From Bdellovibrio sp. SKB1291214 (GTDB lineage: Bacteria; Bdellovibrionota; Bdellovibrionia; Bdellovibrionales; Bdellovibrionaceae): a stretch of DNA of 64,000 bases. The stretch is taken from contig NZ_CP106855.1 of NCBI RefSeq assembly GCF_002209355.2, positions 682,001 through 746,000 on the forward strand. Reading direction: 5' to 3'. The translations under genes and the position numbers were made by a program. This document shows positions 54,133-55,056 of the stretch, in pieces (the first letter of the stretch is position 1; each line of letters opens with the position of its first letter). Below the pieces are notes generated by a model. The model was not told the DNA's origin. It searched no databases and saw only the letters and a program-made list of their open reading frames with translations.

Positions 54133-55056
54133 TTAGAAATAATAAACGTCGAAAGGAACTTTGCCTTTTTGATGATCTTTCTCGGAGCTGCTGCCATAGA
54201 CTCGCACTTCGATGATCTTCTCTTTCACGGTAATAACTACCGGATTTAAATATCCCAAGCCCAAAGCGTCTTTAGGTTTAATCACATGCGCCTGCGCATC
54301 AGAGAACTGAAATTCTTCTAACATTTTTTGAGTGTCAAATTCACGAATGGCCGTTTCTAATTTTGCATCCATCACCGCGAAATCTAAATCACTGGTTTTT
54401 TCGTAAGCTTTGCCGTTAGCAAAGCTTCCGTACAAAACGATGGGACCTTGCAGTTTATCTTGAACCAGGAACTTTTCCTGCAAGCGCATTCCTGTTAACA
54501 ACACATCTGCGCCTTCCAAGGCGATCGGTGAATTGGTTAATTCAGAAATGTGTTTGAAATACATGTCGAGGGTCTTTTCCAAAGAAGCCTGACGATCAAT
54601 CATCATGTATTTAAACCAGCTGCGCACATTGGAATATTCAGAAACCATCACATCCAAATGGCGTTTAAAGAATTTTACAGGTCCTTCTTTAGAGTACTTC
54701 AAAAGCTTTACGTCATTATAAATATCATGGACAAGGTTCATCATTTCCCGCTTTTGCTCTGGAGAAAGCTTCGCAAATTTCACCTTTACAAGATCCAGGG
54801 ACTGACCTTTTTGATCGATCGTTTCAAAGCCCATCAGCTTTTGATAGCGAGCCATCGCTTCCAAAACGCTTTTGGAATTCACATGTTGGCTGATAAATTT
54901 AGCATAAGCCTCAGACTGCGGAGCCAGATTCGCATCGCTATCGTATTTAGTCTCAAAAACATGGCTACAAACATACTTATAGGCATGGGCCTGACTGACC
55001 GCCAGGCATAGCAAAGAGCCCAAAATAAATCTGGATAAAATCACAGAACTTTTCAT
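54133..55056 (-). CDS. Exported nucleotidyltransferase-fold protein
   Basis: 307 residues. A Sec signal peptide (ILGSLLCLAVSQAHA, cleavage after residue 25) is followed by a helical region (about 40-180). A nucleotidyltransferase motif follows: VLYGSFANGKAYEKTSDLDF with Gly210-Ser211 and Asp223/Asp225. The motif is that of MNT/Pol-beta-type enzymes, which use NTP in the cytoplasm, so its pairing with export is unusual. It could act in the prey cell or on an exported substrate (inference). No antitoxin gene is adjacent. It is preceded on the same strand by a LysR gene. Confidence 0.8.
   Translation of the reverse strand: MKSSVILSRFILGSLLCLAVSQAHAYKYVCSHVFETKYDSDANLAPQSEAYAKFISQHVNSKSVLEAMARYQKLMGFETIDQKGQSLDLVKVKFAKLSPEQKREMMNLVHDIYNDVKLLKYSKEGPVKFFKRHLDVMVSEYSNVRSWFKYMMIDRQASLEKTLDMYFKHISELTNSPIALEGADVLLTGMRLQEKFLVQDKLQGPIVLYGSFANGKAYEKTSDLDFAVMDAKLETAIREFDTQKMLEEFQFSDAQAHVIKPKDALGLGYLNPVVITVKEKIIEVRVYGSSSEKDHQKGKVPFDVYYF

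Follow-up and report, generated by a model that had tools for sequence, protein, structure and literature searches.

An exported nucleotidyltransferase-fold protein with a lone-cysteine motif, a candidate for release into the prey of Bdellovibrionota

Nucleotidyltransferase (NTase) folds usually need cytosolic NTP. The NTase-fold effector DrrA/SidM of Legionella, which AMPylates its target, is injected by type IV delivery and carries no Sec signal. In the HepT-MntA system, the antitoxin MntA (NF047752) AMPylates its partner. How periplasm-dwelling predators disable and digest their prey from outside the prey cytoplasm is a largely open question, and the secreted predator proteins described so far are mostly hydrolases and cell-wall enzymes. 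Many signal-peptide proteins of Bdellovibrio bacteriovorus are released into prey (PMC11003981), and a Sec signal alone suffices to release a reporter from this predator (PMC12622784). A search of the open-licence literature found no paper on exported NTases of the kind described below or on their lone-cysteine motif.

The window, that is, the whole 64,000-nucleotide stretch of DNA analysed, contains a gene for a protein that joins an NTase fold to an export signal (Table 1). With a probability of about 0.5, we read it as an exported NTase-fold protein whose family is so far known only from Bdellovibrionota, most likely released into prey, where it would bind nucleotide or transfer it to a prey macromolecule. 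After synthesis in the predator, the protein would be exported by Sec and trimmed after AHA, and then released from the predator into prey, where NTPs would be present. It would next pass into the prey cytoplasm, and there a putative catalytic activity might modify a protein or an RNA, or nucleotide might simply be bound. For folds that ordinarily depend on NTP or SAM, export is most sensible if it leads to a place where those cofactors exist, which for a periplasm-dwelling predator means the prey. An effector role in prey, which the first-pass annotation had called conceivable, is supported in part and is the best available reading, in which delivery and activity are what we infer.

Table 1. 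Coordinates of the features; plain numbers are positions in the window
Feature	Position	Strand	Basis
Exported NTase-fold protein, subfamily A	54133..55056	-	ORF from ATG, 307 aa; Pfam; homologues
Sec signal peptide, residues 1-25, predicted cleavage after A23-H-A25	54982..55056	-	sequence; no variation at A23 or A25 in 8 members; crude score 4.41
Lone-cysteine motif C30-S-H-V-F34 (C-x-x-[VIL]-F), sole Cys of mature protein	54955..54969	-	C30 invariance; Cys count
Residues 97-200, helical N-terminal half of conserved domain (Y113, R132 and D135 invariant)	54457..54768	-	alignment; helices in low-confidence models
NTase motif, G210 to D225, GSFANGKAYEKTSDLD	54382..54429	-	Pfam PF18765/PF01909; residue invariance in subfamilies A and B
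Third-acid stretch of relatives, here S-D253-A-Q-A-H257-V-I-K-P, acid absent at that place	54274..54303	-	alignment
C-terminal strand pair N271-P-V-V...I-E-V-R-V-Y287	54196..54246	-	N271, V274 and V286 invariant in subfamilies A and B
Subfamily B paralogue in the window genome	G000:C1:512959-513792		
Exported methyltransferase-like protein, signal peptide and lone-Cys CTKIF	L121:1537-2334 (G000:C1:220054-220890)	+	
Exported protein of 461 mature residues, lone-Cys CSGIF	L156:2896-4341 (G000:C1:1048893-1050341)	-	

Within the phylum, the domain profile of the family (A6) has matches in 27 of 368 genomes, spread over 16 of 181 genera. Within the genus the family is patchy, being present in 10 of 24 genomes, and is thus not required for predation in general. 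The window protein belongs to subfamily A, found in eight of these 24 genomes; its eight homologues are 41–84% identical. Subfamily B occurs in four of the same 24 genomes and also in a second genus of that bacterial family, and subfamily C, from other genera, consists of proteins of ~750 aa with two tandem NTase domains. Two exported tandem double-NTase proteins were noted at L010:49-2301 (+) and L027:979-3219 (+), and the second domain of the latter is degenerate, having lost the GS and DxD residues. A further exported member, L077, has the degenerate motif GNFPNGRCDL with both DxD and GS gone, and is likely a pseudoenzyme. When 84,980 species genomes were scanned in two pattern-limited searches, homologues came only from Bdellovibrionota, and plasmid and viral-contig searches returned no relatives. 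The first-pass annotation had suggested looking for homologues restricted to predatory bacteria, and within the reach of these scans and searches the homologues indeed all came from this predator phylum. A match in Dehalococcoidia (L018) was rejected as a family member, since it covers no more than the 24 residues that surround the NTase motif.

The NTase assignment rests on matches of the window protein to PF18765 (Polbeta; 3.4e-6, 27.6 bits against a curated cut-off of 26.9) and PF01909 (NTP_transf_2; 3.5e-5, 24.5 bits against a curated cut-off of 21). In addition, the family profile matched the solved structure of an archaeal NTase in the PDB (1YLQ, E=0.0013). AlphaFold models were of low confidence, with a pLDDT of 49.8 for the whole protein (three sequences) and 39.7 for residues 97–307 (two sequences). 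The GS and DxD elements are spaced as GS-x(11)-DxD, and G210, S211, D223 and D225 do not vary across the 12 aligned members of subfamilies A and B. The third acid is another matter. Most B and C domains, together with some divergent members, have Glu there (in 'TLEMHGE' or 'TVEAM'). The B paralogue and the tandem forms retain GS...DxD plus Glu (most domains, in the case of C), and the place of the acid is taken by His in the second domain of L010 (C_L010d2) and in L076. In subfamily A the corresponding stretch instead reads S-[DE]-A-x-x-H-x-[IV], with D/E253 and His257 conserved, and either of these is a candidate for the third ligand. The first-pass annotation was accurate as to the positions of GSFANG (210–215) and SDLD (222–225) and as to the presence of an NTase domain, which lies above the Pfam cut-offs; its term 'active site' was too strong for subfamily A, where the third carboxylate of most relatives is missing from its expected place. 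It had also stated that a structure without the third acidic ligand would count against its proposal, and in the alignment subfamily A does lack an acid at the position where the family carries it.

Catalysis is consequently not assured. Judged from the alignment, the third carboxylate has been lost or moved in subfamily A, which may therefore be an enzyme with two acids or else a pseudoenzyme that binds nucleotide. A possible alternative to an effector that transfers nucleotide, which we advance only tentatively, is an exported pseudoenzyme, whose NTase fold would serve in the predator periplasm or outside the cell as a non-catalytic module for binding nucleotide, nucleic acid or protein. NTP is not expected in the periplasm, and, besides the missing third acid of subfamily A, the losses in L077 and in the second domain of L027 are in keeping with such a function. 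However, subfamilies A and B show no variation in GS or in either DxD acid, with Glu at the third place in most B and C domains, and binding alone would not obviously preserve these residues.

The window genome contains one close copy together with the distant subfamily B paralogue. The window gene is under strong purifying selection, with dN/dS of about 0.02–0.08 by the Nei-Gojobori method. Pairwise values were dN 0.109 and dS 1.61 against L003, dN 0.010 and dS 0.413 for L003 against L004, and dN 0.015 and dS 0.704 for L007 against L008; dS values above those of these pairs are saturated. The gene stands alone, with regulators and a nitroreductase-like gene around it. Four genomes keep the nitroreductase-like and RrF2-like neighbours, and the L007–L009 branch occupies another location with another neighbourhood. 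No toxin-antitoxin, secretion or cognate immunity genes were recognised adjoining the window gene; an immunity gene would be unneeded if the protein were active only outside the predator. This setting also bears on a second, rather unlikely alternative, in which the protein remains in the prey periplasm of the bdelloplast as an enzyme acting on nucleotides or nucleic acids that leak from prey as it dies, nucleotide salvage being one example. The prey inner membrane would then not be crossed; Sec export and outer-membrane release, both known for the predator (PMC12622784), would suffice, and prey contents do become accessible during predation. Against it, salvage and nuclease genes are absent beside the window gene, the neighbours being those named above.

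The conserved export signal counts in favour of the effector reading. Signal peptides were judged by a crude rule-based scan and by eye. That of the window protein comprises an n-region (MKSSVILSR, with K2 and R9), an h-region (FILGSLLCLAV) and a c-region (SQAHA), with cleavage predicted at SQAHA|YKYVC. Across the eight members of subfamily A, A23 and A25 (positions –3 and –1) and C30 are invariant and the letters of the h-region vary; invariant –3/–1 alanines alongside drifting hydrophobic residues are what a cleaved signal should show. A signal-peptide-like start, the feature looked for in a prey-delivered effector, was found from sequence in all 27 intact family N-termini (eight in subfamily A, five in B, two in C and 12 in divergent members), a count from which L075 (broken frame) and L076 (starting at a contig end) were left out. 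Export is therefore no annotation artefact. The pairing of a clear Sec signal peptide with an NTase fold, which the first-pass annotation had flagged as a contradiction, holds throughout the phylum, and the homologues without a signal that it named as counter-evidence were not found among the 27 intact members. It is very improbable that the protein is a cytoplasmic NTase whose start has been misread or whose signal does not function, a reading to which the usual cytosolic NTP need of such folds lends weight, and start-codon misannotation was rejected, given the signal in all 27 intact homologues, the invariance of A23, A25 and C30, and the conserved residues between signal and domain.

Shortly after the signal peptide, the family carries the motif C-x-x-[VIL]-[F/L/Y], whose cysteine is usually the sole one of the mature protein. 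Each of the 12 aligned members of subfamilies A and B has C30, followed by xx[VIL][FL]; none of the 12 has a second mature cysteine, nor do the tandem forms of 751 and 747 aa. The residues before C30 are Y-K-Y-V here and, for example, T, Q, R or L in relatives. A lipoprotein cysteine was considered and rejected, as the lipobox [LVI][ASTVI][GAS]C is absent at the cleavage site.

We looked for C..[VIL]F within the first 17 mature residues of signal-peptide-like soluble proteins encoded in 2.06 Mb (56%) of the genome. This strict survey yielded four proteins: both NTases, a methyltransferase-like protein and a protein of 461 mature residues. Column shuffles gave 0.34 expected against the four observed, a number reached in 2 of 2000 shuffles; the test is partly circular because the motif was chosen from the NTases, and without these two proteins two strict matches remain against about 0.34 expected. 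A broader motif, C..[LIVMF][FLYW], showed no enrichment in a crude signal-peptide set from 23% of the genome (3 against 1.96 expected). Since the motif was picked after seeing the NTases, the weight of evidence lies on its conservation in the methyltransferase-like family and not on the count. This family is unrelated to the NTases and has relatives in 25 of 99 genomes. In its alignment (A7), C-x-x-[VIL]-F directly follows the signal in 12 of 15 members and C-x-x-H-F in one, and 14 of the 15 have no further cysteine. Members matched Pfam Methyltransf_31 at up to 9.3e-5; for the window genome's own protein, Pfam gave no methyltransferase match. The protein with CSGIF has one other carrier among 59 genomes.

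Some neighbours of methyltransferase-like genes were also recorded. In another genus, such a gene adjoins one for an exported CSMLF protein (L145:2-619, -), which by eye alone resembles a GHKL ATPase (IQNTYQHG, GNGLG) and had no match in Pfam or PDB searches. In genome G042, the genes at L140:287-859 (-) and L140:2944-3399 (+) flank the methyltransferase-like gene, and each of their products combines a signal peptide with C..[VI]F (CIEIF and CTNVF).

A second exported family with a fold that uses a cytosolic cofactor (SAM) and the same lone-cysteine motif strengthens the effector reading of the window protein. More speculatively, the window protein could belong to a Bdellovibrionota class of exported cytosolic-type folds (NTases, methyltransferase-like proteins and perhaps GHKL-like ATPases), marked, once the signal is cleaved, by the lone cysteine of C-x-x-[VIL]-F, which would serve delivery into prey as an address, an anchor or a site of modification. 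An exported family that spans the phylum and has an NTP-using fold supplies concrete candidates, open to test, for proteins acting on prey from inside, and the motif common to a second exported family offers a signature for finding more of them.

Among described proteins, the window protein resembles NTases of the Pol-beta superfamily (PF01909/PF18765) in GS-x(11)-DxD and in scoring above the Pfam cut-off, but differs in its signal peptide, its lone-cysteine motif, its own helical N-terminal half and the third acid off its usual place. MntA is the best NCBIfam resemblance of nine of 12 members; however, the score of 24.2 bits falls below the equivalog cut-off of 60, the window protein is exported, and no HepT-like partner gene was recognised nearby. 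The role proposed here would make the protein analogous to DrrA/SidM, an NTase fold that is brought into a foreign cell and nucleotidylates a target there, whereas the manner of delivery differs and the two share no demonstrated sequence relation. A further comparison is with the secreted predatory proteins that B. bacteriovorus HD100 has in empty bdelloplasts, which likewise bear signal peptides and are released into prey; the cited text names proteases, other hydrolases, nucleases, phospholipases and enzymes of the cell wall as their classes, and NTases are not among them (PMC11003981).
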